This document shows positions 1,574-59,000 of a stretch of DNA of 64,000 bases, in pieces. Each line of letters starts with the position of its first letter. Positions within the stretch are counted from its first letter, which is position 1. A program made the translations under genes and the position numbers. Origin of the DNA: Utricularia gibba (lineage: Eukaryota > Streptophyta > Magnoliopsida > Lamiales > Lentibulariaceae); assembly GCA_002189035.1 (NCBI GenBank), contig NEEC01000007.1, positions 3,596,001 through 3,660,000 on the forward strand. Reading direction: 5' to 3'. The notes beneath the pieces are model-generated. The model saw only the letters and a list, made by a program, of their open reading frames with translations, had not been told where the DNA came from and ran no database searches.

Positions 1574-1843
1574 TGATGCATTTATTAACGGTTGGTTTTA
1601 ATAGGCTGCCTCAATGGTTTTCTCAAGGAAAAGTGGGGCGGGTGATGTCGTTGTGAACTTCGTTCTGACCCTTCGGGTTAGAAAATCGTGATGCAGTTAT
1701 TGAAGTTAGGATTTCATGAGCACCCAAAATGCTTTTGTCAATCGCATGCTTTGTAGTTGAGGAGGCGCTCTAGTGGGGCACGGTATCGGGCAAAAGGTCG
1801 AGTCGGGCTCGCTCCAGAGTCATTTTTAGCCTGTCAAAAAAAG
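1574..1843 (+). repeat. Truncated class-a monomer (270 bp)
   Basis: This copy is about 43 bp shorter than its neighbours. Two stretches of the first half are missing. The HindIII-proximal CTTGTCGTTTTT is lost, giving GGAAAAGTGGGGCGGG near 1627-1642. Most of the sequence between GACC and GAAAATCG is replaced by a short CTTCGGGTTA join near 1669-1682. The second half and class-a tail are intact. The two junctions lie close together but are not a single clean deletion. Confidence 0.85.
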
Positions 1844-35271: not shown

Positions 35272-36509
35272 TGATGCATTTATTAACGTTGTTTTAATAG
35301 GCTGCCTAATGGTTTTCTCAAGGAAAAGCTTGTCGTTTTTGGGCGGGTGATGTCGTTGTGAACTTCGTTCTGACCCAAGGTTCGGTCTGACTCCTTTGCC
35401 AAATCTGGTCCTACTCGACGAAAATCGTGATGCAGTTATTGAAGTTAGGATTTCATGAGCACCCAAAATGCTTTTTCAATCGCATGCTTTGTAGTTGAGG
35501 AGGCGCTCTAGTGGGGCACGGTATCGGCAAAAGGTCGAGTCGGGCTCGCTCCCAGAGTCATTTTTAGCCGGCAAAAAAAGTGATGCATTTATTAACGTTG
35601 GGTTTTAATAGGCTGCCTACATGGTTTCTCAAGGAAAAGCTTGTCGTTTCTGGGCGGGTGATGTCTTTTGGAACTTCGTTCTGACCAAGGTTCGGTCTGA
35701 CTCCTTTGCCACATCGGGTCCTACTCGACGAAAATCGTGATGCAGTTATTGAAGTTAGGATTTCATGAGCACCCAAATGGTTTTCTCAACCGCATGCTTT
35801 ATATTGATAAGGTGCTCTGGGGCAACGGTATCGAGTAGGAGGTCGAGTCGAGCTCGGGCCCATAGTCATTTGTAGCTCGGCAAAAAACTTGATGCATTTA
35901 TTAACGGTTGGTTTTAATAGGCTGCCTCAATGGTTTTCTCAAGGAAAAGCTTGTCGTTTTTTGGGCGGGTGATGTCGTTGTGAACTTCGTTCTGACCCAA
36001 GGTTCGGTCTGTCTCCTTTGCCAAATCTGGTCCTACTCGACGAAAATCGTGATGCAGTTATTGAAGTTAGGATTTCATGAGCACCCAAAATGCTTTTTCA
36101 ATCGCATGCTTTGTAGTTGAGGAGGCGCTCTAGTGGGGCACGGTATCGGGCAAAAGTCGAGTCGGGCTCGCCCAGAGTCATTTTTAGCCTGCAAAAAAAG
36201 TGATGCATTTATTAACGTTGGTTTTAATAGGCTGCCTACATGGTTTCTCAAGGAAAAGCTTGTCGTTTCTGGGCGGGTGATGTCTTTGGAACTTCGTTCT
36301 GACCATAGGTTCGGTCTGACTCCTTTGCCACATCGGGTCCTACTCGACGAAAATCGTGATGCAGTTATTGAAGTTAGGATTTCATGAGCACCCAAAATGG
36401 TTTTCTCAACCGCATGCTTTATATTTGATAAGCTCTCGTGGGCAACGGTATCGAGTAGGAGGTCGAGTCGAGCTCGGGCCCATAGTCATTTGTAGCTCGG
36501 CAAAAAACT
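35272..36509 (+). repeat. Two a-c dimers bordering the long HOR
   Basis: Starts 35272a, 35581c, 35890a and 36201c make two regular ~620-bp dimers. Here the sequence changes from the deletion-rich middle domain to the nearly intact right-hand domain. From 36510 the class order becomes strictly periodic. Confidence 0.8.
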
Positions 36510-38058
36510 TGATGCATTTATTAACGGTTGGTTTTAATAGGCTGCCTAATGTTTTCTCAAGGAAAAGCTTGTCTTTTGGGCGGGTGATGTCGTTGTGAAC
36601 TTCGTTCTGACCCAAGGTTCGGTCTGACTCCTTTGCCAAATCTGGTCCTACTCGACGAAAATCGTGATGCAGTTATTGAAGTTAGGATTTCATGAGCACC
36701 CAAAATGCTTTTCAATCGCTGCTTTGTAGTTGAGGAGGCGCTCTAGTGGGCACGGTATCGGGCAAAGGTCGAGTCGGGCTCGCCCAGAGTCATTTTTAGC
36801 CTGTCAAAAAAAGTGATGCATTTATTAACGTTGGGTTTTAATAGGCTGCCTACATGGTTTCTCAAGGAAAAGCTTGTCGTTTCTGGCGGGTGATGTCTTT
36901 TGGAACTTCGTTCTGACCAAGGTTCGGTCTGACTCCTTTGCCACATCGGGTCCTACTCGACGAAAATCGTGATGCAGTTATTGAAGTTAGGATTCATGAG
37001 CACCCAAAATGGTTTTCTCAACCGCATGCTTTATATTTGATAAGGCACTCTCGTGGGGCAACGGTATCGAGCAGGAGGTCGAGTCGAGCTCGGGCCCAGA
37101 GTCATTTGTAGCCCGGCAAAAAAATTGATGCATTTATTAACGTTGGTTTTATTAGGCTGCCTACATGGTTTCTCAAGGAAAGCTTGTCGTTTTGGCGGGT
37201 GATGTCTTTTGGAACTTCGTTCTGACCAAGGTTCGGTCTGACTCCTTTGCCACATCGGGTCCTACTCGACGAAAATCGTGATGCAGTTATTGAAGTTAGG
37301 ATTTCATGAGCACCCAAAATGGTTTTCTCAACCGCATGCTTTATATTTGATAAGGCGCTCTCGTGGGGCAACGGTATCGAGCAGGAGGTCGAGTCGAGCT
37401 CGGGCCCATAGTCATTTGTAGCTCGGCAAAAAACTTGATGCATTTATTAACGTTGGGTTTTAATAGGCCCTACATGGTTTTCTCAAGGAAAAGCTTGTCG
37501 TTTTTGGGCGGGTGATGTCGTTGTGAACTTCGTTCTGACCCAAGGTTCGGTCTGTCTCCTTTGCCAAATCTGGTCCTACTCGACGAAAATCGTGATGCAG
37601 TTATTGAAGTTAGGATTTCATGAGCACCCAAAATGGTTTTCTCAACCGCATGCTTTATATTTGATAAGGCACTCTCGTGGGGCAACGGTATCGAGCAGGA
37701 GGTCGAGTCGAGCTCGCCCAGAGTCATTTGTAGCCGGCAAAAAACTTGATGCATTTATTAACGTTGGTTTTAATAGGCTGCCTACATGGTTCTCAAGGAA
37801 AGCTTGTCGTTTCTGGGCGGGTGATGTCTTTTGGAACTTCGTTCTGACCATAGGTTCGGTCTGACTCCTTTGCCACATCGGGTCCTACTCGACGAAAATC
37901 GTGATGCAGTTATTGAAGTTAGGATTTCATGAGCACCCAAAATGGTTTTCTCAACCGCATGCTTTATATTTGATAAGGTGCTCTCGTGGGGCAACGGTAT
38001 CGAGTAGGAGGTCGAGTCGAGCTCGGGCCCATAGTCATTTGTAGCTCGGCAAAAAACT

Positions 38059-38216
38059 TGATGCATTTATTAACGGTTGGTTTTAATAGGCTGCCTCAAT
38101 GGTTTTCTCAAGGAAAAGCTTGTCGTTTTTGGGCGGGTGATGTCGTTGTGAACTTCGTTCTGACCCAAGGTTCGGTCTGTCTCCTTTGCCAATCTGGTCC
38201 TACTCGACGAAAATCG
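38059..38216 (+). repeat. Half-monomer subunit H1 (158 bp)
   Basis: The unit begins TGATGCATTTATTAACG and ends with TCCTACTCGACGAAAATCG just before the second TGATGCA. It aligns with H2 (38217-38372) along its length: the A-tract and TGATGCA at the start, then TTATT, GTT-GG, ATGGTTTTCTCAA (ATGCTTTTGTCAA in H2 here), a GCTT element, a GGTG/CTC element and a GGTTCGG-like stretch against GGTCGAG. The two halves are therefore diverged copies of a ~157-bp ancestral unit, close to the length of DNA wrapped by one nucleosome. Confidence 0.8.
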
Positions 38217-38259
38217 TGATGCAGTTATTGAAGTTAGGATTTCATGAGCACCCAAAATG
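38196..38259 (+). other. Invariant box of the monomer (reference copy)
   Basis: This ~64-bp stretch runs from GGTCCTACTCGACG through TGATGCAGTTATTG to GAGCACCCAAAATG. It is almost unchanged in all classes and survives even in the scrambled region. Rare exceptions are a lost ACG near 56865, GACGAAATCG near 42564 and 51271, and an extra T near 54388. One systematic difference is GGATTCATG in place of GGATTTCATG, mostly in b-tailed units. It is the only long part of the monomer with essentially no class-diagnostic bases. It could be a protein-binding or recombination site, or only the longest identity tract. Confidence 0.7.
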
Positions 38260-38372
38260 CTTTTGTCAATCGCATGCTTTGTAGTTGAGGAGGCGCTCTA
38301 GTGGGGCACGGTATCGGGCAAAAGGTCGAGTCGGGCTCGCTCCCAGAGTCATTTTTAGCCTGTCAAAAAAAG
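38217..38372 (+). repeat. Half-monomer subunit H2 (156 bp)
   Basis: H2 begins TGATGCAGTTATTGAAG and ends with the class tail and A-tract. It carries nearly all the class-diagnostic bases of the tail. The H1-H2 match is clearest in the first 60 bp and again in the last 40 bp (GACTCCTTTGCCACAT in class-c-tailed units against GAGCTCGGGCCCATAG). H1 and H2 have diverged far more from each other than copies of H1 or of H2 have among themselves, so the duplication is older than the present array. Confidence 0.8.
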
Positions 38373-38687
38373 TGATGCATTTATTAACGTTGGGTTTTAA
38401 TAGGCTGCCTACATGGTTTCTCAAGGAAAAGCTTGTCGTTTCTGGGCGGGTGATGTCTTTTGGAACTTCGTTCTGACCATAGGTTCGGTCTGACTCCTTT
38501 GCCACATCGGGTCCTACTCGACGAAAATCGTGATGCAGTTATTGAAGTTAGGATTTCATGAGCACCCAAAATGGTTTTCTCAACCGCATGCTTTATATTT
38601 GATAAGGTGCTCTCGTGGGGCAACGGTATCGAGTAGGAGGTCGAGTCGAGCTCGGGCCCATAGTCATTTGTAGCTCGGCAAAAAACT
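38373..38687 (+). repeat. Reference monomer: a-type head, class-c tail
   Basis: The head after a class-a tail has AACGTTGGGTTTT, CCTACATGGTTTCTC, TTTCTGGGCGGG, GTCTTTTGGAAC, CCATAGG, CTGACTCC and CACATCGGG. The tail has GGTTTTCTCAACCGC, TTTATATTTGATAAGG, TGCTCTCGTGGGGCAACGG, GAGTAGGAGG, GAGCTCGGGCCCATAG and CTCGGCAAAAAACTT. Together with the preceding monomer it forms the ~628-bp a-c dimer that is common on both sides of the window. Confidence 0.9.
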
Positions 38688-39001
38688 TGATGCATTTATT
38701 AACGGTTGGTTTTAATAGGCTGCCTCAATGGTTTTCTCAAGGAAAAGCTTGTCGTTTTTGGGCGGGTGATGTCGTTGTGAACTTCGTTCTGACCCAAGGT
38801 TCGGTCTGTCTCCTTTGCCAATCTGGTCCTACTCGACGAAAATCGTGATGCAGTTATTGAAGTTAGGATTTCATGAGCACCCAAAATGCTTTTGTCAATC
38901 GCATGCTTTGTAGTTGAGGAGGCGCTCTAGTGGGGCACGGTATCGGGCAAAAGGTCGAGTCGGGCTCGCTCCCAGAGTCATTTTTAGCCTGTCAAAAAAA
39001 G

Positions 39002-39315
39002 TGATGCATTTATTAACGTTGGGTTTTAATAGGCTGCCTACATGGTTTCTCAAGGAAAAGCTTGTCGTTTTCTGGGCGGGTGATGTCTTTTGGAACTTCG
39101 TTCTGACCATAGGTTCGGTCTGACTCCTTTGCCACATCGGGTCCTACTCGACGAAAATCGTGATGCAGTTATTGAAGTTAGGATTCATGAGCACCCAAAA
39201 TGGTTTTCTCAACCGCATGCTTTATATTTGATAAGGCACTCTCGTGGGGCAACGGTATCGAGCAGGAGGTCGAGTCGAGCTCGGCCCAGAGTCATTTGTA
39301 GCCCGGCAAAAAAAT
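39002..39315 (+). repeat. Reference monomer: a-type head, class-b tail
   Basis: The head is as in the other a-following units. The tail has GGATTCATG (one T fewer), GATAAGGCACTCTCG, GAGCAGGAGG, GCCCAGAGTCATTTG and CCCGGCAAAAAAATT. Class b differs from class c by CAC for TGC, GAGCAGG for GAGTAGG, CAGAG for CATAG, and CCC for CTC before GGC. Confidence 0.85.
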
Positions 39316-39628
39316 TGATGCATTTATTAACGTTGGTTTTAATAGGCTGCCTACATGGTTTCTCAAGGAAAGCTTGTCGTTTCTGGGCGGGTGATGTTTT
39401 GGAACTTCGTTCTGACCATAGGTTCGGTCTGACTCCTTTGCCACATCGGGTCCTACTCGACGAAAATCGTGATGCAGTTATTGAAGTTAGGATTTCATGA
39501 GCACCCAAAATGGTTTTCTCAACCGCATGCTTTATATTTGATAAGGCGCTCTCGTGGGGCAACGGTATCGAGCAGGAGGTCGAGTCGAGCTCGGCCCAGA
39601 GTCATTTGTAGCCCGGCAAAAAAAAAAT
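39316..39628 (+). repeat. Reference monomer: b-type head, class-b-like tail
   Basis: The head following a b tail has AACGTTGG without the third G. In other copies it is TTTATTAGG and CTACATAGTTTCTC. The tail is class b-like, with GCGCTCTCG, GAGCAGGAGG and CCCAGAGTC. Its A-tract at about 39618-39627 is 10 A, among the longest seen. Confidence 0.8.
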
Positions 39629-39943
39629 TGATGCATTTATTAACGTTGGTTTTAATAGGCTGCCTACATGGTTTTCTCAAGGAAAAGCTTGTCGTTTTTG
39701 GGCGGGTGATGTCGTTTGGAACTTCGTTCTGACCCAAGGTTCGGTCTGACTCCTTTGCCACATCGGGTCCTACTCGACGAAAATCGTGATGCAGTTATTG
39801 AAGTTAGGATTCATGAGCACCCAAAATGGTTTTCTCAACCGCATGCTTTTATATTTGAGGAGGCGCTCTCGTGGGGCAACGGTATCGAGCAGGAGGTCGA
39901 GTCGAGCTCGGGCCCATAGTCATTTGTAGCTCGGCAAAAAACT
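39629..39943 (+). repeat. Reference monomer: b-type head, class-d tail
   Basis: The head here already mixes markers: TTTTTGGGCGGG and GTCGTTTGGAAC, with CCCAAGG and CACATCGGG. The tail is class d: TTTGAGGAGGCGCTCTCGTGG (class-a-like GAGGAGG followed by c-like GGGGCAACGG), GAGCAGGAGG, GGGCCCATAG and CTCGGCAAAAAACTT. Class d thus looks like a recombinant of a-, b- and c-type tails. Confidence 0.78.
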
Positions 39944-40255
39944 TGATGCATTTATTAACGTTGGTTTTAATAGGCTGCCTACAGGTTTTCTCAAGGAAAA
40001 GCTTGTCGTTTTTGGGCGGGTGATGTCGTTGAACTTCGTTCTGACCCAAGGTTCGGTCTGTCTCCTTTGCCAATCGGGTCCTACTCGACGAAAATCGTGA
40101 TGCAGTTATTGAAGTTAGGATTTCATGAGCACCCAAAATGGTTTTCTCAACCGCATGCTTTATATTTGATAAGGCGCTCTCGTGGGGCAACGGTATCGAG
40201 CAGGAGGTCGAGTCGAGCTCGGGCCCAGAGTCATTTGTAGCCCGGCAAAAAAAAT
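39944..40255 (+). repeat. Reference monomer: d-type head, class-b tail
   Basis: The head has AACGTTGGTTTT, GCCTACAGGTTTTCTC, TTTTTGGGCGGG, GTCGTTGAAC (deleted relative to GTCGTTGTGAAC), CCCAAGG and CTGTCTCC. The tail is b-like with GCGCTCTCG and CCCAGAG. The same position in other octamers (42432, 46452, 52984) carries larger deletions after TTTTAATAG. Confidence 0.78.
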
Positions 40256-40566
40256 TGATGCATTTATTAACGTTGGTTTAATAGGCTGCCTACATGGTTT
40301 CTCAAGGAAAGCTTGTCGTTTCTGGGCGGGTGATGTCTTTTGGAACTTCGTTCTGACCATAGGTTCGGTCTGACTCCTTTGCCACATCGGGTCCTACTCG
40401 ACGAAAATCGTGATGCAGTTATTGAAGTTAGGATTTCATGAGCACCCAAAATGGTTTTCTCAACCGCATGCTTTATATTTGATAAGGTGCTCTCGTGGGG
40501 CAACGGTATCGAGTAGGAGGTCGAGTCGAGCTCGGGCCATAGTCATTTGTAGCTCGGCAAAAAACT
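40256..40566 (+). repeat. Reference monomer: b-type head, class-c tail, end of octamer
   Basis: The head is GTTGGTTTAATAGG with CCTACATGG, TTTCTGGGCGGG and CCATAGG. The tail is class c with GAGTAGGAGG and GGGCCATAG, one C fewer than the usual GGGCCCATAG. It closes the octamer; the next unit at 40567 begins again with a c-type head and class-a tail. Confidence 0.8.
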
Positions 40567-43033
40567 TGATGCATTTATTAACGGTTGGTTTTAATAGGCT
40601 GCCTCAATGGTTTTCTCAAGGAAAAGCTTGTCGTTTTGGGCGGGTGATGTCGTTTGAACTTCGTTCTGACCCAAGGTTCGGTCTGTCTCCTTTGCCAATC
40701 TGGTCCTACTCGACGAAAATCGTGATGCAGTTATTGAAGTTAGGATTTCATGAGCACCCAAAATGCTTTTGTCAATCGCATGCTTTGTAGTTGAGGAGGC
40801 GCTCTAGTGGGGCACGGTATCGGGCAAAAGGTCGAGTCGGGCTCGCTCCCAGAGTCATTTTTAGCCTGTCAAAAAAAGTGATGCATTTATTAACGTTGGT
40901 TTTAATAGGCTGCCTACATGGTTTCTCAAGGAAAGCTTGTCGTTTCTGGGCGGGTGATGTCTTTTGGAACTTCGTTCTGACCATAGTTCGGTCTGACTCC
41001 TTTGCCACATCGGGTCCTACTCGACGAAAATCGTGATGCAGTTATTGAAGTTAGGATTTCATGAGCACCCAAAATGGTTTTCTCAACCGCATGCTTTATA
41101 TTTGATAAGGTGCTCTCGTGGGGCAACGGTATCGAGTAGGAGGTCGAGTCGAGCTCGGGCCCATAGTCATTTGTAGCTCGGCAAAAAACTTGATGCATTT
41201 ATTAACGGTTGGTTTTAATAGGCTGCCTCAATGGTTTTCTCAAGGAAAAGCTTGTCGTTTTTGGGCGGGTGATGTCGTTGTGAACTTCGTTCTGACCCAA
41301 GGTTCGGTCTGTCTCCTTTGCCAAATCTGGTCCTACTCGACGAAAATCGTGATGCAGTTATTGAAGTTAGGATTTCATGAGCACCCAAAATGCTTTTGTC
41401 AATCGCATGCTTTGTAGTTGAGGAGCGCTCTAGTGGGGCACGGTATCGGGCAAAGGTCGAGTCGGGCTCGCTCCCAGAGTCATTTTTAGCCTGTCAAAAA
41501 AAGTGATGCATTTATTAACGTTGGTTTTAATAGGCTGCCTACATGGTTTCTCAAGGAAAAGCTTGTCGTTTCTGGGCGGGTGATGTCTTTTGGAACTTCG
41601 TTCTGACCATAGGTTCGGTCTGACTCCTTTGCCACATCGGGTCCTACTCGACGAAAATCGTGATGCAGTTATTGAAGTTAGGATTCATGAGCACCCAAAA
41701 TGGTTTTCTCAACCGCATGCTTTATATTTGATAAGGCGCTCTCGGGGCAACGGTATCGAGCAGGAGGTCGAGTCGAGCTCGGGCCCAGAGTCATTTGTAG
41801 CCCGGCAAAAAAATTGATGCATTTATTAACGTTGGTTTTAGGCTGCCTACATGTTTCTCAAGGAAAAGCTTGTCGTTTCTGGGCGGGTGATGTCGTTGGA
41901 ACTTCGTTCTGACCAAGGTTCGGTCTGACTCCTTTGCCACATCGGGTCCTACTCGACGAAAATCGTGATGCAGTTATTGAAGTTAGGATTTCATGAGCAC
42001 CCAAAATGGTTTTCTCAACCGCATGCTTTATATTTGATAAGGCACTCTCGTGGGGCAACGGTATCGAGCAGGAGGTCGAGTCGAGCTCGGGCCCAGAGTC
42101 ATTTGTAGCCCGGCAAAAAAAATTGATGCATTTATTAACGTTGGTTTAATAGGCTGCCTACATGGTTTCTCAAGGAAAAGCTTGTCGTTTCTGGCGGGTG
42201 ATGTCGTTGGAACTTCGTTCTGACCAAGGTTCGGTCTGACTCCTTTGCACATCGGGTCCTACTCGACGAAAATCGTGATGCAGTTATTGAAGTTAGGATT
42301 TCATGAGCACCCAAAATGGTTTTCTCACCGCATGCTTTATATTTGAGGAGGCGCTCTCGTGGGGCAACGGTATCGAGCAGGAGGTCGAGTCGAGCTCGGG
42401 CCCATAGTCATTTGTAGCTCGGCAAAAAACTTGATGCATTTATTAACGTTGGTTTTAATAGGGTTTCTCAAGGAAAAGCTTGTCGTTTTTGGGGGGTGAT
42501 GTCGTTTGAACTTCGTTCTGACCAAGGTTCGGTCTGTCTCCTTTGCCAAATCGGTCCTACTCGACGAAATCGTGATGCAGTTATTGAAGTTAGGATTTCA
42601 TGAGCACCCAAAATGGTTTTCTCAAATGCTTTATTTGATAAGGCGCTCTCGTGGGGCAACGGTATCGAGCAGAGGTCGAGTCGAGCTCGGGCCCAGAGTC
42701 ATTTGTAGCCCGGCAAAAAAAAATTGATGCATTTATTAACGTTGGTTTTAATAGGCTGCCTACATGGTTTCTCAAGGAAAGCTTGTCGTTTCTGGCGGGT
42801 GATGTCTTTTGGAACTTCGTTCTGACCAAGGTTCGGTCTGACTCCTTTGCCACATCGGGTCCTACTCGACGAAAATCGTGATGCAGTTATTGAAGTTAGG
42901 ATTTCATGAGCACCCAAAATGGTTTTCTCAACCGCATGCTTTATATTTGATAAGGTGCTCTCGTGGGGCAACGGTATCGAGTAGGAGGTCGAGTCGAGCT
43001 CGGGCCCATAGTCATTTGTAGCGGCAAAAAACT

Positions 43034-46000
43034 TGATGCATTTATTAACGGTTTTAATAGGCTGCCTCAATGGTTTTCTCAAGGAAAAGCTTGTCGTTTT
43101 TGGGCGGTGATGTCGTTGTGAACTTCGTTCTGACCAAGGTTCGGTCTGTCTCCTTTGCCAATCTGGTCCTACTCGACGAAAATCGTGATGCAGTTATTGA
43201 AGTTAGGATTTCATGAGCACCCAAAATGCTTTTGTCAATCGCATGCTTTGTAGTTGAGGAGGCGCTCTAGTGGGGCACGGTATCGGCAAAAGGTCGAGTC
43301 GGGCTCGCCCAGAGTCATTTTAGCCTGTCAAAAAAAGTGATGCATTTATTAACGTTGGGTTTTAATAGGCTGCCTACATGGTTTCTCAAGGAAAAGCTTG
43401 TCGTTTCTGGGGGTGATGTCTTTTGGAACTTCGTTCTGACCATAGGTTCGGTCTGACTCCTTTGCCACATCGGGTCCTACTCGACGAAAATCGTGATGCA
43501 GTTATTGAAGTTAGGATTTCATGAGCACCCAAAATGGTTTTCTCAACCGCATGCTTTATATTTGATAAGGCACTCTCGTGGGGCAACGGTATCGAGCAGG
43601 AGGTCGAGTCGAGCTCGGGCCCAGAGTCATTTGTAGCCCGGCAAAAAAAATTGATGCATTTATTAACGTTGGTTTTAATAGGCTGCCTATGGTTTTCTCA
43701 AGGAAAAGCTTGTCGTTTTTGGGCGGGTGATGTCTTTTGAACTTCGTTCTGACCAAGGTTCGGTCTGACTCCTTTGCCACATCGGGTCCTACTCGACGAA
43801 AATCGTGATGCAGTTATTGAAGTTAGGATTCATGAGCACCCAAAATGGTTTTCTCAACCGCATGCTTTATATTTGATAAGGCGCTCTCGTGGGCAACGGT
43901 ATCGAGCAGGAGGTCGAGTCGAGCTCGGGCCCATAGTCATTTGTAGCTCGGCAAAAAAACTTGATGCATTTATTAACGTTGGTTTTAATAGGCTGCCTAC
44001 ATGGTTTTCTCAAGGAAAAGCTTGTCGTTTTTTGGGCGGGTGATGTCGTTGGAACTTCGTTCTGACCCAAGGTTCGGTCTGACTCCTTTGCCAAATCGGG
44101 TCCTACTCGACGAAAATCGTGATGCAGTTATTGAAGTTAGGATTTCATGAGCACCCAAAATGGTTTTCAACCGCATGCTTTATATTTGATAAGGCGCTCT
44201 CGTGGGGCAACGGTATCGAGCAGGAGGTCGAGTCGAGCTCGGGCCCAGTCATTTGTAGCCCGGCAAAAAAAATTGATGCATTTATTAACGTTGGTTTTAT
44301 AGGCTGCCTACATGGTTTCTCAAGGAAAAGCTTCGTTTCTGGGCGGGTGATGTCTTTTGAACTTCGTTCTGACCATAGGTTCGGTCTGACTCCTTTGCCA
44401 CATCGGGTCCTACTCGACGAAAATCGTGATGCAGTTATTGAAGTTAGGATTTCATGAGCACCCAAAATGGTTTTCTCAACCGCATGCTTTATATTTGATA
44501 AGGTGCTCTCGTGGGGCAACGGTATCGAGTAGGAGGTCGAGTCGAGCTCGGGCCCATAGTCATTTGTAGCTCGGCAAAAAACTTGATGCATTTATTAACG
44601 GTTGGTTTTAATAGGCTGCCTCAATGGTTTTCTCAAGGAAAAGCTTGTCGTTTTTGGGCGGGTGATGTCGTTGTGAACTTCGTTCTGACCCAAGGTTCGG
44701 TCTGTCTCCTTTGCCAAATCTGGTCCTACTCGACGAAAATCGTGATGCAGTTATTGAAGTTAGGATTTCATGAGCACCCAAAATGCTTTTTCAATCGCAT
44801 GCTTTGTAGTTGAGGAGGCGCTCTAGTGGGGCACGGTATCGGGCAAAAGGTCGAGTCGGGCTCGCTCCCAGAGTCATTTTTAGCCTGTCAAAAAAAGTGA
44901 TGCATTTATTAACGTTGGGTTTTAATAGGCTGCCTACATGGTTTCTCAAGGAAAAGCTTGTCGTTTCTGGGCGGGTGATGTCTTTTGGAACTTCGTTCTG
45001 ACCATAGGTTCGGTCTGACTCCTTTGCCACATCGGGTCCTACTCGACGAAAATCGTGATGCAGTTATTGAAGTTAGGATTTCATGAGCACCCAAAATGGT
45101 TTTCTCAACCGCATGCTTTATATTTGATAAGGTGCTCTCGTGGGGCAACGGTATCGAGTAGGAGGTCGAGTCGAGCTCGGGCCCATAGTCATTTGTAGCT
45201 CGGCAAAAAACTTGATGCATTTATTAACGGTTGGTTTTAATAGGCTGCCTCAATGGTTTTCTCAAGGAAAAGCTTGTCGTTTTTGGGCGGGTGATGTCGT
45301 TGTGAACTTCGTTCTGACCAAGGTTCGGTCTGTCTCCTTTGCCAATCTGGTCCTACTCGACGAAAATCGTGATGCAGTTATTGAAGTTAGGATTTCATGA
45401 GCACCCAAAATGCTTTTGTCAATCGCATGCTTTGTAGTTGAGGAGCGCTCTAGTGGGGCACGGTATCGGGCAAAAGGTCGAGTCGGGCTCGCTCCCAGAG
45501 TCATTTTTAGCCTCAAAAAAAGTGATGCATTTATTAACGTTGGTTTTAATAGGCTGCCTACATGGTTTCTCAAGGAAAAGCTTGTCGTTTCTGGGCGGGT
45601 GATGTCTTTTGGAACTTCGTTCTGACCATAGGTTCGGTCTGACTCCTTTGCCACATCGGGTCCTACTCGACGAAAATCGTGATGCAGTTATTGAAGTTAG
45701 GATTCATGAGCACCCAAAATGGTTTTCTCAACCGCATGCTTTATATTTGATAAGGTCTCGTGGGGCAACGGTATCGAGCAGGAGGTCGAGTCGAGCTCGG
45801 GCCCAGAGTCATTTGTAGCCCGGCAAAAAAAATTGATGCATTTATTAACGTTGGTTTTTAGGCTGCCTACATGTTTCTCAAGGAAAAGCTTGTCGTTTCT
45901 GGGCGGGTGATGTCTTTTGGAACTTCGTTCTGACCAAGGTTCGGTCTGACTCCTTTGCCACATCGGGTCCTACTCGACGAAAATCGTGATGCAGTTATTG

Positions 46001-49000
46001 AAGTTAGGATTTCATGAGCACCCAAAATGGTTTTCTCAACCGCATGCTTTATATTTGATAAGGCCTCTCGTGGGGCAACGGTATCGAGCAGGAGGTCGAG
46101 TCGAGCTCGGCCCAGAGTCATTTGTAGCCCGGCAAAAAAAATTGATGCATTTATTAACGTTGGTTTTAGGCTGCCTACATGGTTTCTCAAGGAAAAGCTT
46201 GTCGTTTTTGGCGGGTGATGTCGTTGGAACTTCGTTCTGACCCAAGGTTCGGTCTGACTCCTTTGCCACATCGGGTCCTACTCGACGAAAATCGTGATGC
46301 AGTTATTGAAGTTAGGATTTCATGAGCACCCAAAATGGTTTTCTCAACCGCATGCTTTATATTTGATAAGGCGCTCTCGTGGGGCAACGGTATCGAGCAG
46401 GAGGTCGAGTCGAGCTCGGGCCCATAGTCATTTGTAGCTCGGCAAAAAACTTGATGCATTATTAACGTTGGTTTTAATAGACATGGTTTTCTCAAGGAAA
46501 AGCTTGTCGTTTTTGGCGGGTGATGTCGTTGGAACTTCGTTCTGACCCAAGGTTCGGTCTGACTCCTTTGCCACATCGGTCCTACTCGACGAAAATCGTG
46601 ATGCAGTTATTGAAGTTAGGATTCATGAGCACCCAAAATGGTTTTCTCAACCGCATGCTTTATATTTGATAAGGCACTCTCGTGGGGCAACGGTATCGAG
46701 CAGGAGGTCGAGTCGAGCTCGGCCAGAGTCATTTGTAGCCCGGCAAAAAAATTGATGCATTTATTAACGTTCGGCTTTATTAGGCTGCCTACATGTTTCT
46801 CAAGGAAAAGCTTGTCGTTTCTGGCGGGTGATGTCTTTTGGAACTTCGTTCTGACCAGGTTCGGTCTGACTCCTTTGCCACATCGGGTCCTACTCGACGA
46901 AAATCGTGATGCAGTTATTGAAGTTAGGATTTCATGAGCACCCAAAATGGTTTTCTCAACCGCATGCTTTATATTTGATAAGGTGCTCTCGTGGGGCAAC
47001 GGTATCGAGTAGGAGGTCGAGTCGAGCTCGGGCCCATAGTCATTTGTAGCTCGGCAAAAAACTTGATGCATTTATTAACGGTTGGTTTTAATAGGCTGCC
47101 TCAATGGTTTTCTCAAGGAAAAGCTTGTCGTTTTGGGCGGGTGATGTCGTTGTGAACTTCGTTCTGACCCAAGGTTCGGTCTGTCTCCTTTGCCAATCTG
47201 GTCCTACTCGACGAAAATCGTGATGCAGTTATTGAAGTTAGGATTTCATGAGCACCCAAAATGCTTTTGTCAATCGCATGCTTTGTAGTTGAGGAGGCGC
47301 TCTAGTGGGGCACGGTATCGGGCAAAAGGTCGAGTCGGGCTCGCCCAGAGTCATTTTGCCTGTCAAAAAAAGTGATGCATTTATTAACGTTGGGTTTTAA
47401 TAGGCTGCCTACATGGTTTCTCAAGGAAAAGCTTGTCGTTTCTGGGCGGTGATGTCTTTTGGAACTTCGTTCTGACCATAGGTTCGGTCTGACTCCTTTG
47501 CCACATCGGGTCCTACTCGACGAAAATCGTGATGCAGTTATTGAAGTTAGGATTTCATGAGCACCCAAAATGGTTTTCTCAACCGCATGCTTTATATTTG
47601 ATAAGGTGCTCTCGTGGGGCAACGGTATCGAGTAGGAGGTCGAGTCGAGCTCGGGCCCATAGTCATTTGTAGCTCGGCAAAAAACTTGATGCATTTATTA
47701 ACGGTTGGTTTTAATAGGCTGCCTCAATGGTTTTCTCAAGGAAAAGCTTGTCGTTTTTGGGCGGGTGATGTCGTTGTGAACTTCGTTCTGACCCAAGGTT
47801 CGGTCTGTCTCCTTTGCCAATCTGGTCCTACTCGACGAAAATCGTGATGCAGTTATTGAAGTTAGGATTTCATGAGCACCCAAAATGCTTTTGTCAATCG
47901 CATGCTTTGTAGTTGAGGAGGCGCTCTAGTGGGGCACGGTATCGGGCAAAGGTCGAGTCGGGCTCGCTCCCAGAGTCATTTTTAGCCTGTCAAAAAAAGT
48001 GATGCATTTATTAACGTTGGGTTTTAATAGGCTGCCTACATGGTTTCTCAAGGAAAAGCTTGTCGTTTCTGGGCGGGTGATGTCTTTTGGAACTTCGTTC
48101 TGACCATAGGTTCGGTCTGACTCCTTTGCCACATCGGGTCCTACTCGACGAAAATCGTGATGCAGTTATTGAAGTTAGGATTCATGAGCACCCAAAATGG
48201 TTTTCTCAACCGCATGCTTTATATTTGATAAGGCACTCTCGTGGGGCAACGGTATCGAGCAGGAGGTCGAGTCGAGCTCGGGCCCAGAGTCATTTGTAGC
48301 CCGGCAAAAAAATTGATGCATTTATTAACGTTGGTTTATTAGGCTGCCTACATGTTTCTCAAGGAAAAGCTTGTCGTTTCTGGGCGGGTGATGTCTTTTG
48401 GAACTTCGTTCTGACCAAGGTTCGGTCTGACTCCTTTGCCACATCGGGTCCTACTCGACGAAAATCGTGATGCAGTTATTGAAGTTAGGATTTCATGAGC
48501 ACCCAAAATGGTTTTCTCAACCGCATGCTTTATATTTGATAAGGCGCTCTCGTGGGGCAACGGTATCGAGCAGGAGGTCGAGTCGAGCTCGGGCCCAGAG
48601 TCATTTGTAGCCCGGCAAAAAAATTGATGCATTTATTAACGTTGGTTTTAATAGGCTGCCTACATGGTTTCTCAAGGAAAAGCTTGTCGTTTCTGGCGGG
48701 TGATGTCGTTGGGAACTTCGTTCTGACCAAGGTTCGGTCTGACTCCTTTGCCACATCGGTCCTACTCGACGAAAATCGTGATGCAGTTATTGAAGTTAGG
48801 ATTCATGAGCACCCAAAATGGTTTTCTCAACCGCATGCTTTATATTTGATAAGGCGCTCTCGTGGGGCAACGGTATCGAGCAGGAGGTCGAGTCGAGCTC
48901 GGGCCCATAGTCATTTGTAGCTCGGCAAAAAACTTGATGCATTTATTAACGTTGGTTTTAATAGCTGCCTACATGGTTTTCTCAAGGAAAAGCTTGTCGT

Positions 49001-49560
49001 TTTTGGGCGGGTGATGTCGTTGTGAACTTCGTTCTGACCCAAGGTTCGGTCTGTCTCCTTTGCCAAATCTGGTCCTACTCGACGAAAATCGTGATGCAGT
49101 TATTGAAGTTAGGATTTCATGAGCACCCAAAATGGTTTTCTCAACCGCATGCTTTATATTTGATAAGGCACTCTCGTGGGGCAACGGTATCGAGCAGGAG
49201 GTCGAGTCGAGCTCGGCCCAGAGTCATTTGTAGCCCGGCAAAAAAAATTGATGCATTTATTAACGTTGGTTTATTAGGCTGCCTACATGGTTTCTCAAGG
49301 AAAGCTTGTCGTTTCTGGGCGGGTGATGTCTTTTGGAACTTCGTTCTGACCATAGGTTCGGTCTGACTCCTTTGCCACATCGGGTCCTACTCGACGAAAA
49401 TCGTGATGCAGTTATTGAAGTTAGGATTTCATGAGCACCCAAAATGGTTTTCTCAACCGCATGCTTTATATTTGATAAGGTGCTCTCGTGGGGCAACGGT
49501 ATCGAGTAGGAGGTCGAGTCGAGCTCGGGCCCATAGTCATTTGTAGCTCGGCAAAAAACT
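43034..49560 (+). repeat. 21-monomer HOR, copy 2 (5+8+8 order)
   Basis: Starts with tail class are: pentamer 43034a, 43338b, 43652d, 43962b, 44274c; octamer 44584a, 44898c, 45213a, 45523b, 45834b, 46143d, 46452b, 46753c; octamer 47064a, 47373c, 47687a, 48000b, 48314b, 48625d, 48935b, 49249c. Total length is 6527 bp. The d-to-b monomer at 46452 is 301 bp and lacks GCTGCCT before ACATGG. Confidence 0.85.
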
Positions 49561-52500
49561 TGATGCATTTATTAACGTTGGTTTTAATAGGCTGCCTCAA
49601 TGGTTTTCTCAAGGAAAAGCTTGTCGTTTTTGGGCGGGTGATGTCGTTGTGAACTTCGTTCTGACCCAAGGTTCGGTCTGTCTCCTTTGCCAATCTGGTC
49701 CTACTCGACGAAAATCGTGATGCAGTTATTGAAGTTAGGATTTCATGAGCACCCAAAATGCTTTTGTCAATCGCATGCTTTGTATTGAGGAGGCGCTCTA
49801 GTGGGGCACGGTATCGGGCAAAAGGTCGAGTCGGGCTCGCTCCCAGAGTCATTTTTAGCCTGCAAAAAAAGTGATGCATTTATTAACGTTGGGTTTTAAT
49901 AGGCTGCCTACATGGTTTCTCAAGGAAAAGCTTGTCGTTTCTGGGCGGGTGATGTCTTTTGGAACTTCGTTCTGACCATAGGTTCGGTCTGACTCCTTTG
50001 CCACATCGGGTCCTACTCGACGAAAATCGTGATGCAGTTATTGAAGTTAGGATTCATGAGCACCCAAAATGGTTTTCTCAACCGCATGCTTTATATTTGA
50101 TAAGGCACTCTCGTGGGGCAACGGTATCGAGCAGGAGGTCGAGTCGAGCTCGGCCCAGAGTCATTTGTAGCCCGGCAAAAAAAATTGATGCATTTATTAA
50201 CGTTCGGCTTTATTAGGCTGCCTACATAGTTTCTCAAGGAAAAGCTTGTCGTTTCTGGGCGGGTGATGTCTTTTGGAACTTCGTTCTGACCAAGGTTCGG
50301 TCTGACTCCTTTGCCACATCGGGTCCTACTCGACGAAAATCGTGATGCAGTTATTGAAGTTAGGATTCATGAGCACCCAAAATGGTTTTCTCAACCGCAT
50401 GCTTTATATTTGATAGGAGGCGCTCTCGTGGGGCAACGGTATCGAGCAGGAGGTCGAGTCGAGCTCGGGCCCATAGTCATTTGTAGCTCGGCAAAAAACT
50501 TGATGCATTTATTAACGTTGGGTTTTAATAGCTGCCTACATTGTTTTCTCAAGGAAAAGCTTGTCGTTTTTGGGCGGGTGATTTCGTTGTGAACTTCGTT
50601 CTGACCCAAGGTTCGGTCTGTCTCCTTTGCCAAATCGGGTCCTACTCGACGAAAATCGTGATGCAGTTATTGAAGTTAGGATTTCATGAGCACCCAAAAT
50701 GGTTTTCTCAACCGCATGCTTTATATTTGATAAGGCACTCTCGTGGGGCAACGGTATCGAGCAGGAGGTCGAGTCGAGCTCGGCCCAGAGTCATTTGTAG
50801 CCCGGCAAAAAAATTGATGCATTTATTAACGTTCGGCTTTATTAGGCTGCCTACATGTTTCTCAAGGAAAAGCTTGTCGTTTCTGGGCGGGTGATGTCTT
50901 TTGGAACTTCGTTCTGACCATAGGTTCGGTCTGACTCCTTTGCCACATCGGGTCCTACTCGACGAAAATCGTGATGCAGTTATTGAAGTTAGGATTTCAT
51001 GAGCACCCAAAATGGTTTTTCAACCGCATGCTTTATATTTGATAAGGTGCTCTCGTGGGGCAACGGTATCGAGTAGGAGGTCGAGTCGAGCTCGGGCCCA
51101 TAGTCATTTGTAGCTCGGCAAAAAATTGATGCATTTATTAACGGTTGGTTTTAATAGGCTGCCTATGGTTTTCTCAAGGAAAAGCTTGTCGTTTTGGCGG
51201 GTGATGTCGTTGTGAACTTCGTTCTGACCCAAGGTTCGGTCTGTCTCCTTTGCCAATCGGTCCTACTCGACGAAATCGTGATGCAGTTATTGAAGTTAGG
51301 ATTTCATGAGCACCCAAAATGTTTTCTCAATCGCATGCTTTGTATTTGAGGAGGCGCTCGTGGGCACGGTATCGGGCGAGGTCGAGTCGGCTCGCCCAGA
51401 GTCATTTTTAGCCTGCAAAAAAATGATGCATTTATTAACGTTGGGTTTTAATAGGCTGCCTACATGGTTTCTCAAGGAAAAGCTTGTCGTTTCTGGCGGG
51501 TGATGTCTTTTGGAACTTCGTTCTGACCAAGGTTCGGTCTGACTCCTTTGCCACATCGGGTCCTACTCGACGAAAATCGTGATGCAGTTATTGAAGTTAG
51601 GATTTCATGAGCACCCAAAATGGTTTTCTCAACCGCATGCTTTATATTTGATAAGGTGCTCTCGTGGGGCAACGGTATCGAGTAGGAGGTCGAGTCGAGC
51701 TCGGGCCCATAGTCATTTGTAGCTCGGCAAAAAAACTTGATGCATTTATTAACGGTTGGTTTTAATAGGCTGCCTCAATGGTTTTCTCAAGGAAAAGCTT
51801 GTCGTTTTTGGGCGGGTGATGTCGTTGTGAACTTCGTTCTGACCCAAGGTTCGGTCTGTCTCCTTTGCCAATCTGGTCCTACTCGACGAAAATCGTGATG
51901 CAGTTATTGAAGTTAGGATTTCATGAGCACCCAAAATGTTTTGTCAATCGCATGCTTTGTAGTTGAGGAGGCGCTCTAGTGGGGCACGGTATCGGGCAAA
52001 AGGTCGAGTCGGCTCGCTCCCAGAGTCATTTTTAGCCTGTCAAAAAAAGTGATGCATTTATTAACGTTGGGTTTTAATAGGCTGCCTACATGGTTTCTCA
52101 AGGAAAAGCTTGTCGTTTCTGGGCGGGTGATGTCTTTTGGAACTTCGTTCTGACCATAGGTTCGTCTGACTCCTTTGCCACATCGGGTCCTACTCGACGA
52201 AAATCGTGATGCAGTTATTGAAGTTAGGATTCATGAGCACCCAAAATGGTTTTCTCAACCGCATGCTTTATATTTGATAAGGCACTCTCGTGGGGCAACG
52301 GTATCGAGCAGGAGGTCGAGTCGAGCTCGGGCCCAGAGTCATTTGTAGCCCGGCAAAAAAAAATTGATGCATTTATTAACGTTGGCTTTATTAGGCTGCC
52401 TACATATTTCTCAAGGAAAAGCTTGTCGTTTCTGGCGGGTGATGTCTTTTGGAACTTCGTTCTGACCCAAGGTTCGGTCTGACTCCTTTGCCACATCGGG

Positions 52501-55500
52501 TCCTACTCGACGAAAATCGTGATGCAGTTATTGAAGTTAGGATTTCATGAGCACCCAAAATGGTTTTCTCAACCGCATGCTTTATATTTGATAAGGCACT
52601 CTCGTGGGGCAACGGTATCGAGCAGGAGGTCGAGTCGAGCTCGGCCCAGAGTCATTTGTAGCCCGGCAAAAAAAATTGATGCATTTATTAACGTTGGCTT
52701 TATTAGGCTGCCTACATAGTTTCTCAAGGAAAAGCTTGTCGTTTCTGGCGGGTGATGTCGTTGGAACTTCGTTCTGACCCAAGGTTCGGTCTGACTCCTT
52801 TGCCACATCGGGTCCTACTCGACGAAAATCGTGATGCAGTTATTGAAGTTAGGATTTCATGAGCACCCAAAATGGTTTTCTCAACCGCATGCTTTATATT
52901 TGAAGGCTCTCGTGGGGCAACGGTATCGAGCAGAGGTCGAGTCGAGCTCGGGCCCATAGTCATTTGTAGCTCGGCAAAAAACTTGATGCATTATTAACGT
53001 TGGTTTTAATAGCATTGTTTTCTCAAGGAAAAGCTTGTCGTTTTTGGGCGGGTGATGTCGTTTGGAACTTCGTTCTGACCAAGGTTCGGTCTGTCCTTTG
53101 CCAAATCGGTCCTACTCGACGAAAATCGTGATGCAGTTATTGAAGTTAGGATTTCATGAGCACCCAAAATGTTTTTCAACCGCATGCTTTATATTTGATA
53201 AGGCACTCTGGGGCAACGGTATCGAGCAGGAGGTCGAGTCGAGCTCGGGCCCAGAGTCATTTGTAGCCCGGCAAAAAAAATTGATGCATTTATTAACGTT
53301 CGGCTTTATTAGGCTGCCTACATAGTTTCTCAAGGAAAAGCTTGTCGTTTCTGGGCGGGTGATGTCTTTTGGAACTTCGTTCTGACCATAGGTTCGGTCT
53401 GACTCCTTTGCCACATCGGGTCCTACTCGACGAAAATCGTGATGCAGTTATTGAAGTTAGGATTTCATGAGCACCCAAAATGGTTTTCTCAACCGCATGC
53501 TTTATATTTGATAAGGTGCTCTCGTGGGGCAACGGTATCGAGTAGGAGGTCGAGTCGAGCTCGGGCCCATAGTCATTTGTAGCTCGGCAAAAAACTTGAT
53601 GCATTTATTAACGTTGGTTTTAATAGGCTGCCTCAATGGTTTTCTCAAGGAAAAGCTTGTCGTTTTTGGGCGGGTGATGTCGTTGTGAACTTCGTTCTGA
53701 CCCAAGGTTCGGTCTGTCTCCTTTGCCAATCTGGTCCTACTCGACGAAAATCGTGATGCAGTTATTGAAGTTAGGATTTCATGAGCACCCAAAATGCTTT
53801 TGTCAATCGCATGCTTTGTAGTTGAGGAGGCGCTCTAGTGGGGCACGGTATCGGCAAAAGGTCGAGTCGGCTCGCTCCCAGAGTCATTTTTAGCCTGCAA
53901 AAAAATTGATGCATTTATTAACGTTGGGTTTTAATAGGCTGCCTACATGGTTTCTCAAGGAAAAGCTTGTCGTTTCTGGGCGGGTGATGTCTTTTGGAAC
54001 TTCGTTCTGACCATAGGTTCGGTCTGACTCCTTTGCCACATCGGGTCCTACTCGACGAAAATCGTGATGCAGTTATTGAAGTTAGGATTTCATGAGCACC
54101 CAAAATGGTTTTCTCAACCGCATGCTTTATATTTGATAAGGTGCTCTCGTGGGGCAACGGTCGAGTAGGAGGTCGAGTCGAGCTCGGGCCCATAGTCATT
54201 TGTAGCTCGGCAAAAAACTTGATGCATTTATTAACGTTGGTTTTAATAGGCTGCCTCAATGGTTTTCTCAAGGAAAAGCTTGTCGTTTTTTGGGCGGGTG
54301 ATGTCGTTGTGAACTTCGTTCTGACCCAAGGTTCGGTCTGTCTCCTTTGCCAATCTGGTCCTACTCGACGAAAATCGTGATGCAGTTTATTGAAGTTAGG
54401 ATTTCATGAGCACCCAAAATGTTTTTGTCAATCGCATGCTTTGTAGTTGAGGAGGCGCTCTAGTGGGGCACGTATCGGGCAAAAGGTCGAGTCGGGCTCG
54501 CTCCCAGAGTCATTTTTAGCCTGTCAAAAAAAGTGATGCATTTATTAACGTTGGTTTTAATAGGCTGCCTACATGGTTTCTCAAGGAAAAGCTTGTCGTT
54601 TCTGGGCGGGTGATGTCTTTTGGAACTTCGTTCTGACCATAGGTTCGGTCTGACTCCTTTGCCACATCGGGTCCTACTCGACGAAAATCGTGATGCAGTT
54701 ATTGAAGTTAGGATTCATGAGCACCCAAAATGGTTTTCTCAACCGCATGCTTTATATTTGATAAGGCACTCTCGTGGGGCAACGGTATCGAGAGCAGGAG
54801 GTCGAGTCGAGCTCGGGCCCAGAGTCATTTGTAGCCCGGCAAAAAAATTGATGCATTTATTAACGTTGGTTTTATTAGGCTGCCTACATAGTTTCTCAAG
54901 GAAAAGCTTGTCGTTTCTGGGCGGGTGATGTCTTTTGGAACTTCGTTCTGACCAAGGTTCGGTCTGACTCCTTTGCCACATCGGGTCCTACTCGACGAAA
55001 ATCGTGATGCAGTTATTGAAGTTAGGATTCATGAGCACCCAAAATGGTTTTCTCAACCGCATGCTTTTATATTTGATAAGGCACTCTCGTGGGCAACGGT
55101 ATCGAGCAGGAGGTCGAGTCGAGCTCGGCCCAGAGTCATTTGTAGCCCGGCAAAAAAAATTGATGCATTTATTAACGTTCGGCTTTATTAGGCTGCCTAC
55201 ATAGTTTCTCAAGGAAAAGCTTGTCGTTTCTGGCGGGTGATGTCGTTGGGAACTTCGTTCGGACCCAAGGTTCTGTCTGACTCCTTTGCCACATCGGGTC
55301 CTACTCGACGAAAATCGTGATGCAGTTATTGAAGTTAGGATGTCATGAGCACCCAAAATGGTTTTCTCAACCGCATGCTTTATATTTGAGGAGGCGCTCT
55401 CGTGGGGCAACGGTATCGAGCAGGAGGTCGAGTCGAGCTCGGGCCCATAGTCATTTGTAGCTCGGCAAAAAACTTGATGCATTTATTAACGTTGGTTTTA

Positions 55501-56096
55501 ATATGCCTACATTGTTTTCTCAAGGAAAAGCTTGTCGTTTTTTGGGCGGGTGATTTCGTTGTGAACTTCGTTCTGACCCAAGGTTCGGTCTGTCTCCTTT
55601 GCCAAATCGGTCCTACTCGACGAAAATCGTGATGCAGTTATTGAAGTTAGGATTTCATGAGCACCCAAAATGGTTTTCTCAACCGCATGCTTTATATTTG
55701 AGGCGCTCTCGTGGGGCAACGGTATCGAGCAGGAGGTCGAGTCGAGCTCGGGCCCAGAGTCATTTGTAGCCGGCAAAAAAATTGATGCATTTATTAACGT
55801 TGGTTTTAATAGGCTGCCTACATGGTTTCTCAAGGAAAAGCTTGTCGTTTCTGGGCGGGTGATGTCTTTTGGAACTTCGTTCTGACCATAGGTTCGGTCT
55901 GACTCCTTTGCCACATCGGGTCCTACTCGACGAAAATCGTGATGCAGTTATTGAAGTTAGGATTTCATGAGCACCCAAAATGGTTTTCTCAACCGCATGC
56001 TTTATATTTGATAAGGTGCTCTCGTGGGGCAACGGTATCGAGTAGGAGGTCGAGTCGAGCTCGGGCCCATAGTCATTTGTAGCTCGGCAAAAAACT
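49561..56096 (+). repeat. 21-monomer HOR, copy 3 (5+8+8 order)
   Basis: Starts with tail class are: pentamer 49561a, 49872b, 50186d, 50501b, 50815c; octamer 51127a, 51424c, 51738a, 52050b, 52365b, 52677d, 52984b, 53282c; octamer 53597a, 53907c, 54220a, 54534b, 54849b, 55161d, 55475b, 55783c. Total length is 6536 bp. The monomers starting at 50501, 52984 and 55475 share a CATTGTTTTCTC variant not seen in copies 1 and 2. Confidence 0.85.
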
Positions 56097-59000
56097 TGAT
56101 GCATTTATTAACGGTTGGTTTTAATAGGCTGCCTCAATGGTTTTCTCAAGGAAAAGCTTGTCGTTTTTGGGCGGGTGATGTCGTTGTGAACTTCGTTCTG
56201 ACCAAGGTTCGGTCTGTCTCCTTTGCCAATCTGGTCCTACTCGACGAAAATCGTGATGCAGTTATTGAAGTTAGGATTTCATGAGCACCCAAAATGTTTT
56301 GTCAATCGCATGCTTTGTAGTTGAGGAGGCGCTCTAGTGGGGCACGGTATCGGGCAAAAGGTCGAGTCGGGCTCGCTCCCAGAGTCATTTTAGCCTGCAA
56401 AAAAAGTGATGCATTTATTAACGTTGGGTTTTAATAGGCTGCCTACATGGTTTCTCAAGGAAAAGCTTGTCGTTTCTGGGCGGGTGATGTCTTTTGGAAC
56501 TTCGTTCTGACCATAGGTTCGGTCTGACTCCTTTGCCACATCGGGTCCTACTCGACGAAAATCGTGATGCAGTTATTGAAGTTAGGATTCATGAGCACCC
56601 AAAATGGTTTTCTCAACCGCATGCTTTATATTTGATAAGGCACTCTCGTGGGCAACGGTATCGAGCAGGAGGAGAGTCGAGCTCGGCCCAGAGTCATTTG
56701 TAGCCCGGCAAAAAAATTGATGCATTTATTAACGTTCGGTTTATTAGGCTGCCTACATAGTTTCTCAAGGAAAAGCTTGTCGTTTCTGGGCGGGTGATGT
56801 CTTTTGGAACTTCGTTCTGACCAAGGTTCGGTCTGACTCCTTTGCCACATCGGGTCCTACTCGAAAATCGTGATGCAGTTATTGAAGTTAGGATTCATGA
56901 GCACCCAAAATGGTTTTCTCAACCGCATGCTTTATATTTGATAGGCGCTCTCGTGGGGCAACGGTATCGAGCAGGAGGTCGAGTCGAGCTCGTCCCAGAG
57001 TCATTTGTAGCCGGCAAAAAAATTGATGCATTTATTAACGTTGGTTTATTAGGCTGCCTACATGTTTTCTCAAGGAAAAGCTTGTCGTTGGGCGGGTGAT
57101 GTCGTTGGGAACTTCGTTCCCCAAGGTTCGTCTGACTCCTTTGCCACATCGGGTCCTACTCGACGAAAATCGTGATGCAGTTATTGAAGTTAGGATTCAT
57201 GAGCACCCAAAATGGTTTTCTCAACCGCATGCTTTATATTTGAGGAGGCGCTCGTGGGCAACGGTATCGAGCAGGAGGTCGAGTCGAGCTCGGGCCCATA
57301 GTCATTTGTAGCTCGGCAAAAAACTTGATGCATTTATTAACGTTGGGTTTTAATAGGCTGCCTACATGTTTTCTCAAGGAAAAGCTTGTCGTTTTTGGGC
57401 GGGTGATGTCGTTGTGAACTTCGTTCTGACCCAAGGTTCGGTCTGTCTCCTTTGCCAAATCTGGTCCTACTCGACGAAAATCGTGATGCAGTTATTGAAG
57501 TTAGGATTTCATGAGCACCCAAAATGGTTTTCTCAACGCATGCTTTATTTGAGGAGGCGCTCTAGTGGGGCAACGGTATCGAGCAAAGGTCGAGTCGGCT
57601 CGCCCAGAGTCATTTTTAGCCTGTCAAAAAAATGATGCATTTATTAACGTTGGGTTTAATAGGCTGCCTACATGGTTTCTCAAGGAAAAGCTTGTCGTTT
57701 CTGGGCGGTGATGTCTTTTGGAACTTCGTTCTGACCATAGGTTCGGTCTGACTCCTTTGCCACATCGGGTCCTACTCGACGAAAATCGTGATGCAGTTAT
57801 TGAAGTTAGGATTTCATGAGCACCCAAATGGTTTTCTCAACCGCATGCTTTATATTTGATAAGGTGCTCTCGTGGGGCAACGGTATCGAGTAGGAGGTCG
57901 AGTCGAGCTCGGGCCCATAGTCATTTGTAGCTCGGCAAAAAACTTGATGCATTTATTAACGTTGGTTTTAATAGGCTGCCTCAATGGTTTTCTCAAGGAA
58001 AAGCTTGTCGTTTTTGGGCGGGTGATGTCGTTGTGAACTTCGTTCTGACCAAGGTTCGGTCTGTCTCCTTTGCCAATCTGGTCCTACTCGACGAAAATCG
58101 TGATGCAGTTATTGAAGTTAGGATTTCATGAGCACCCAAAATGCTTTTGTCAGCATGCTTTATAGTTTGAGGAGGCGCTCTAGTGGGCACGGTATCGGCA
58201 AAAGGTCGAGTCGGGCTCGCTCCAGAGTCATTTTAGCCGTCAAAAAAAGTGATGCATTTATTAACGTTGGGTTTTAATAGGCTGCCTACATGGTTTCTCA
58301 AGGAAAAGCTTGTCGTTTCTGGGCGGTGATGTCTTTTGGAACTTCGTTCTGACCATAGGTTCGGTCTGACTCCTTTGCCACATCGGGTCCTACTCGACGA
58401 AAATCGTGATGCAGTTATTGAAGTTAGGATTCATGAGCACCCAAAATGGTTTTCTCAACCGCATGCTTTATATTTGATAAGGCACTCTCGTGGGGCAACG
58501 GTATCGAGCAGGAGGTCGAGTCGAGCTCGGCCCAGTCATTTGTAGCCCGGCAAAAAAATTGATGCATTTATTAACGTTCGGTTTATTAGGCTGCCTACAT
58601 AGTTTCTCAAGGAAAAGCTTGTCGTTTTGGGCGGGTGATGTCTTTTGGAACTTCGTTCTGACCATAGGTTCGGTCTGACTCCTTTGCCACATCGGGTCCT
58701 ACTCGACGAAAATCGTGATGCAGTTATTGAAGTTAGGATTTCATGAGCACCCAAAATGGTTTTCTCAACCGCATGCTTTATATTTGATAAGGCTCTCGTG
58801 GGGCAACGGTATCGAGTAGGAGGTCGAGTCGAGCTCGGGCCCATAGTCATTTGTAGCTCGGCAAAAAACTTGATGCATTTATTAACGGTTGGTTTTAATA
58901 GGCTGCCTCAATGGTTTTCTCAAGGAAAAGCTTGTCGTTTTTGGCGGGGTGATGTCGTTGTGAACTTCGTTCTGACCCAAGGTTCGGTCTGTCTCCTTTG

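Follow-up and report, generated by a model that had tools for sequence, protein, structure and literature searches.

We asked whether the 21-monomer order that recurs three times in succession in a satellite array of Utricularia gibba marks a unit copied as a whole, or a regular arrangement of shorter units that were copied and homogenised among themselves.

The satellite array and its monomer

The window, that is, the whole stretch of 64,000 nt analysed here (C213:3,596,001-3,660,000, in an assembly of 100.1 Mb with 516 contigs, the largest of 8.5 Mb), is one satellite array in a single orientation, the monomer consensus covering every base:

1..64000, plus strand: ~313-bp satellite (TRF; full consensus coverage, on the plus strand only; flanking samples)

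Flanking samples place the window in a parent array of at least 218 kb, which begins near C213:3,486,180 and continues as far as the end of the contig at 3,704,653. An exact 50-mer of the satellite occurs 1,799 times genome-wide against 147 times within the window, giving roughly 0.8 Mb of assembled satellite in total. The monomer is itself dimeric, as the first-pass annotation had proposed; its halves of 157 bp are 73% identical over ungapped columns, and their alignment score exceeds those of all 500 shuffles. The underlying dimer is old. Monomers at the array's edge carry 19–30 substitutions relative to the consensus, and those of the interior mostly 0–5, which is the usual pattern of an old edge and a young core. 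An RNA origin of the repeat was rejected, because an Rfam search of the sequence gave no match and a tRNA search over 36–46 kb of the window found none.

Altogether 205 monomers, varying in length by tens of bases, were cut at one shared anchor across the window. Each was aligned separately to the 314-bp consensus, since a joint MAFFT alignment of all monomers had been swollen to 930 columns by odd-length pieces and was dropped; substitutions alone were scored, because the indels are dominated by homopolymer shortening. The odd-length monomers, at 11495-12537 and 62435-62848, measure 334, 708, and 414 bp between anchors and are still satellite; they are either rearranged units or assembly joins. 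The monomers form four classes, designated P, Q, R, and S, whose consensuses differ at 4–34 of 314 sites (about 1–11%): P from S at 4 sites, R from P at 16, R from S at 12, and Q from the other three at 22 to 34.

The threefold 21-monomer order

Between 36963 and 56557, substitution-based class calls yield the string RSRPQ|PQRRSRPQ|PQRRSRPQ three times consecutively, with 62 of the 63 monomer places in agreement, which confirms the 21-monomer order described previously. The 5-mer RSRPQ equals the 8-mer PQRRSRPQ minus its initial PQR. The features are as follows, with class calls as evidence unless indicated otherwise.

36963..43486 (6524 bp), plus strand: copy 1 of the 21-monomer order, RSRPQ + PQRRSRPQ + PQRRSRPQ (substitution-based)
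43487..50022 (6536 bp), plus strand: copy 2 (substitution-based)
50023..56557 (6535 bp), plus strand: copy 3, with one mosaic monomer (substitution-based)
36963..38523, plus strand: 5-mer RSRPQ, first of three (also a T in its first R, common to all copies)
43487-45048 and 50023-51572, plus strand: 5-mers two and three
38524..41026, plus strand: 8-mer PQRRSRPQ, first of six
Starts at 41027, 45049, 47523, 51573, and 54058, plus strand: remaining five 8-mers
51272..51572 (301 bp), plus strand: Q/R mosaic monomer 165, where Q is expected (haplotype row)
9024..11494, plus strand: eight-monomer order in PQPQRRSR phase, occurring once outside the block (order match at 9024; end placed at the next odd-length monomer)

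The near-equality of the copy lengths, given earlier as 6524, 6527, and 6536 bp, holds, with somewhat different values in the phase used here. The mosaic monomer 165 is nearest to R by consensus distance, by a small margin. Upstream the block is flanked by plain PQ dimers, and downstream the order breaks with R-R-S. The class order shows nested periods of 5, 8, 13, and 21, and the nested 2-, 5-, 8-, and 21-monomer order reported before is real in terms of both class calls and order periods. Moreover, within lags 10–30 the class order of the window matches itself exactly over as many as 27 monomers, a length that none of 3,000 first-order Markov simulations of the class order reached (maximum, 18). 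Together with the 62/63 fit, this shows that the threefold order is real and not a product of chance.

Identity at matched positions

Raw identity within the block is highest at lag 21 (99.20%), followed by lag 42 (98.90%), lag 8 (97.58%), lag 13 (96.85%), lag 2 (96.51%), and lag 1 (94.05%), and no lag-21 peak was found in the 72 monomers upstream of the block. The excess over lags 8 and 13, which the first-pass annotation had expected of a super-repeat, is thus reproduced in the raw values. It is, however, confounded by the class order: since the 5-mer shifts the register, pairs at lags 8 and 13 often join monomers of different classes. Each monomer was therefore given its role in the 8-mer, and only pairs of like role were compared. 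The lag-21 advantage was then absent among the block monomers, the same 21-position giving 99.11% against 99.06% for off-phase pairs, and 3,623 of 5,000 permutations of positions within roles equalled or exceeded the observed value. Indeed, role-matched identity was 99.26% at lag 8, 99.19% at lag 13, 99.02% at lag 16, and 99.07% at lag 29. By the annotation's own rule, under which a 21-mer super-repeat falls if monomers at lag 21 are no more alike than at lag 8 or 13, the super-repeat is unsupported at the sequence level.

Matching by class only left a slight excess at lag 21 (99.28%, the mean under permutation being 99.13%; as high in 123 of 4,000 permutations), which arises because roles differ within a class and which role matching removes. 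The class-matched test can nevertheless detect block duplication in this assembly. The contig C52 (38,359 bp, all satellite) holds a ~19-kb duplication of 61 monomers, reverse-strand monomers 8–61, and for this 61-mer the class-only test was strongly positive (0 of 4,000; z 6.8). Thus, a raw lag peak is insufficient evidence for a higher level of a higher-order repeat (HOR), and order must be told apart from phased variants.

Sharing of variants among units

Minor alleles are shared by 32 pairs within a copy against 15 at the same 21-position, in counts that take in some homopolymer-run sites; roles 4–8, where all counted variants lie, offer as many pairs of one kind as of the other, and equal numbers would be expected. 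Rare variants, which the earlier remark had described as not all following the 21-mer phase, track physical neighbourhood. For example, Q variants at sites 153–155 recur in the last Q of four units in succession (monomers 160, 165, 173, and 181), a run that crosses the boundary between copies 2 and 3; A at site 206 is found in all three R4 monomers of copy 3 and only there; and, where the block ends on the right, several variants persist from one unit to the next.

The nine 5-monomer cores (roles 4–8, being monomers 4–8 of each unit) were further aligned with MAFFT. Differences over gap-free columns rise from 9.9 between adjacent units to about 13 between distant ones; with strict columns few sites are left, the neighbourhood signal is weak, and neither kind of pair is clearly the closer (3.33 differences at the same position against 3.44 within the same copy). 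Column 254 is perfectly phased, its T marking the first R of the 5-mer against both 8-mers in all three copies, which indicates a shared 5-mer type and not a 21-mer unit. Within these cores, no site separates 8-mer 1 from 8-mer 2 in all three copies.

Origin of the order

By a little over an even chance, we read the block as a local higher-order domain in a putative centromeric or pericentromeric array, in which an 8-mer and its 5-mer derivative lie in 5-8-8 order and are locally homogenised. The equality under role matching and the sharing of variants by neighbourhood support the 8-mer, with its 5-mer form, as the putative copying unit, and the 21-monomer period would be a regularity of order. 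The previous caution, which allowed for independent alternation of 5- and 8-mers, was justified in this respect. Presumably, whole-monomer blocks multiplied through unequal sister-chromatid exchange or replication-based copying, and neighbouring 8-mers and 5-mers would be kept alike by conversion or exchange over short distances. The order itself may go back to a 21-mer that was amplified and then subjected to conversion, or to a small number of independent steps. By our own arithmetic, of the 84 ways to place three 5-mers in nine slots, 3 (3.6%) give a period-3 order, which makes purely independent alternation somewhat unlikely, and a true third-level 21-mer is accordingly kept as a possible unit. 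Such a unit, an 8-8-5 block amplified in tandem to three copies whose phased variants were later erased by conversion, seems to us rather doubtful. It would account for the fit of the order and the near-equal copy lengths, for an order match longer than in any simulation, for the raw maximum and the small class-matched excess at lag 21, and for the phased site marking the 5-mer in every copy; yet role matching leaves no excess, variants track neighbourhood and not phase, and no phased site splits the two 8-mers, whereas the 61-mer on C52 stands out clearly in the class-matched test. If the 8-mers were nearly identical at the time of amplification, however, no phased variants would have been left and the test would be blind.

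The order may also owe something to the assembly. The present assembly fits the U. gibba genome assembled with HGAP from PacBio subreads averaging 10,385 bases, with an N50 of 3.4 Mb (PMC5793159), and with reads of ~10 kb the units of a 19.6-kb block, being 99% identical, may have been put in the wrong order. Homopolymer runs account for 51% of the consensus and hold 76% of the 687 single-base deletions in the window; this is expected of a weakly polished PacBio consensus, which the array interior resembles. Read correction could, moreover, blend neighbouring copies and so mimic local conversion. That correction or layout of noisy ~10-kb reads duplicated, collapsed, or blended copies, making the threefold order wholly or partly an assembly product, is still unlikely in our view. 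The dispersal of the satellite over about 30 small contigs fits such an origin, but gaps per monomer in the block (about 2–7) are below those of most of the upstream array, substitutions outside homopolymers distinguish the copies, and a single 6.5-kb unit is shorter than the mean read.

Genomic setting of the array

C213 bears CCCTAAA telomere repeats at its left end, and its right end lies inside the satellite. The left edge of the array near 3,486,180 directly adjoins a Ty1/copia element (C213:3481501-3486170; L047:1-4670) with one in-frame stop near the integrase region; a second LTR of the same family lies inverted just left of this element (L035:1188-1434). This copia family comprises at least 40 copies of 92–100% identity, among which are the following clusters.

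C4:1976570-2052058: nine copies within 76 kb
C413:2929379-2971855: three copies within 43 kb
C402:2542034-2568471: three copies within 27 kb
C3:4631881-4736163: three copies within 105 kb
C2:2822123-2892940: three copies within 71 kb

Among the best 40 candidates scored, 23 have a neighbour within 105 kb, a limit picked after the hits had been seen; the expected number is 3.0, and none of 2,000 uniform placements gave more than 13. Dense clusters on several large contigs could be candidate satellite-free centromere cores. If they are read as centromeres, the array beside a member of the same family would belong to the centromeric region of one chromosome, and the contig running from telomere to array, the copia edge, and the older edge monomers are positional hints in the same direction. 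These features suggest a putative centromeric or pericentromeric satellite of one chromosome, whose function, if any, would be that of an ordinary centromeric satellite, namely nucleosome-scale DNA for centromeric chromatin. In the sequence searched, two exact class patterns, all of whose hits were listed (47 and 84), match C213 and otherwise just small contigs, the latter at coordinates below 42 kb, although gaps in the assembly may hide further matches; sharing by all chromosomes, common although not obligatory for a centromeric satellite, is thus apparently lacking.

Other observations concern the rest of the genome. A multi-exon histone H3-fold match at C402:1152439-1152773, separate from six intact H3 genes, could be a candidate CENH3. 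Degenerate rbcL copies on a large, apparently nuclear contig (C2:3012594-3013507) and on the mitochondrial contig (C515:58344-58736) are probably plastid DNA transfers; the mitochondrial contig also carries a split cox1, and the plastid contig a flowering-plant rbcL.

PMC8333044, citing the genome paper, states that the putative centromeres of U. gibba are free of satellite repeats. If the location of the array is confirmed, that statement would need an exception for one chromosome, and the spread of satellites into centromeres could usefully be studied in a small genome that has centromeres of both types. A bolder reading is quite improbable: that a third-level 21-mer is newly formed in the putative centromeric satellite of one chromosome, the others having clusters of one young copia family instead, so that the take-over of a retrotransposon-type centromere by satellite is seen at an early stage.

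Comparison with known systems

A precedent is known from hop, where chromosome-specific centromeric satellites (Saaz293 and others) occur beside retrotransposon-rich centromeres (PMC12371157). There, too, a ~320-bp satellite is limited to some chromosomes, and other centromeres are rich in an LTR retrotransposon; that element is a Ty3/gypsy CRM, in contrast to the Ty1/copia neighbour here, and the location in hop is supported by CENH3 ChIP and FISH, whereas the centromeric position here is putative.

As to form, a classical (Willard-type) HOR has distinct monomer types diverging by 20–40% within the unit, whereas four classes fill the 21 places here. In a cascading HOR, types recur with subfragment periods, as they do here with 5, 8, 13, and 21, and tandem copies of a whole unit diverge by under 5%, as with 99.2% identity at lag 21 and 98.9% at lag 42. 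As to whether copies are closer than type alone predicts, class-only matching was weakly positive and the role-matched and variant-sharing tests were negative. The human chromosome 15 alpha satellite 15mer is such a cascading HOR, with periods of 4, 7, and 11 and 429 copies (PMC11050224). The block resembles it in that a monomer type recurs within the unit, with periods of 5, 8, and 13; it differs in having three copies, in classes that diverge by about 1–11% and not by 20–40%, and in that phase brings no gain in identity once the 8-mer role is taken into account. It fits a cascading HOR in form, without the scale of the primate case, the copying of the unit being putative.

The block also fits a looser usage, under which any two similar blocks of several monomers make an HOR (PMC10199239). 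In the sense of TRASH (two blocks of at least 3 monomers with no more than 5 variants in each monomer pair), it is one by definition when substitutions only are counted, the average at lag 21 being about 2.5 per monomer (99.2% of 314) with indels left out. The local HORs of Arabidopsis CEN178, defined in this way (PMC10199239), belong to a 178-bp monomer, in contrast to a dimeric 313-bp monomer found on one large contig only of a draft assembly. They, too, are paired blocks of several monomers that differ at few sites per monomer, and they make up numerous local patterns that overlap, with no single unit spanning the array. The same holds here, where the 61-mer on C52, a weak 22-mer at C213:3.55 Mb, and dimers at the window start occur elsewhere in the satellite, and the 21-monomer block is one local pattern among several, not an array-wide structure.
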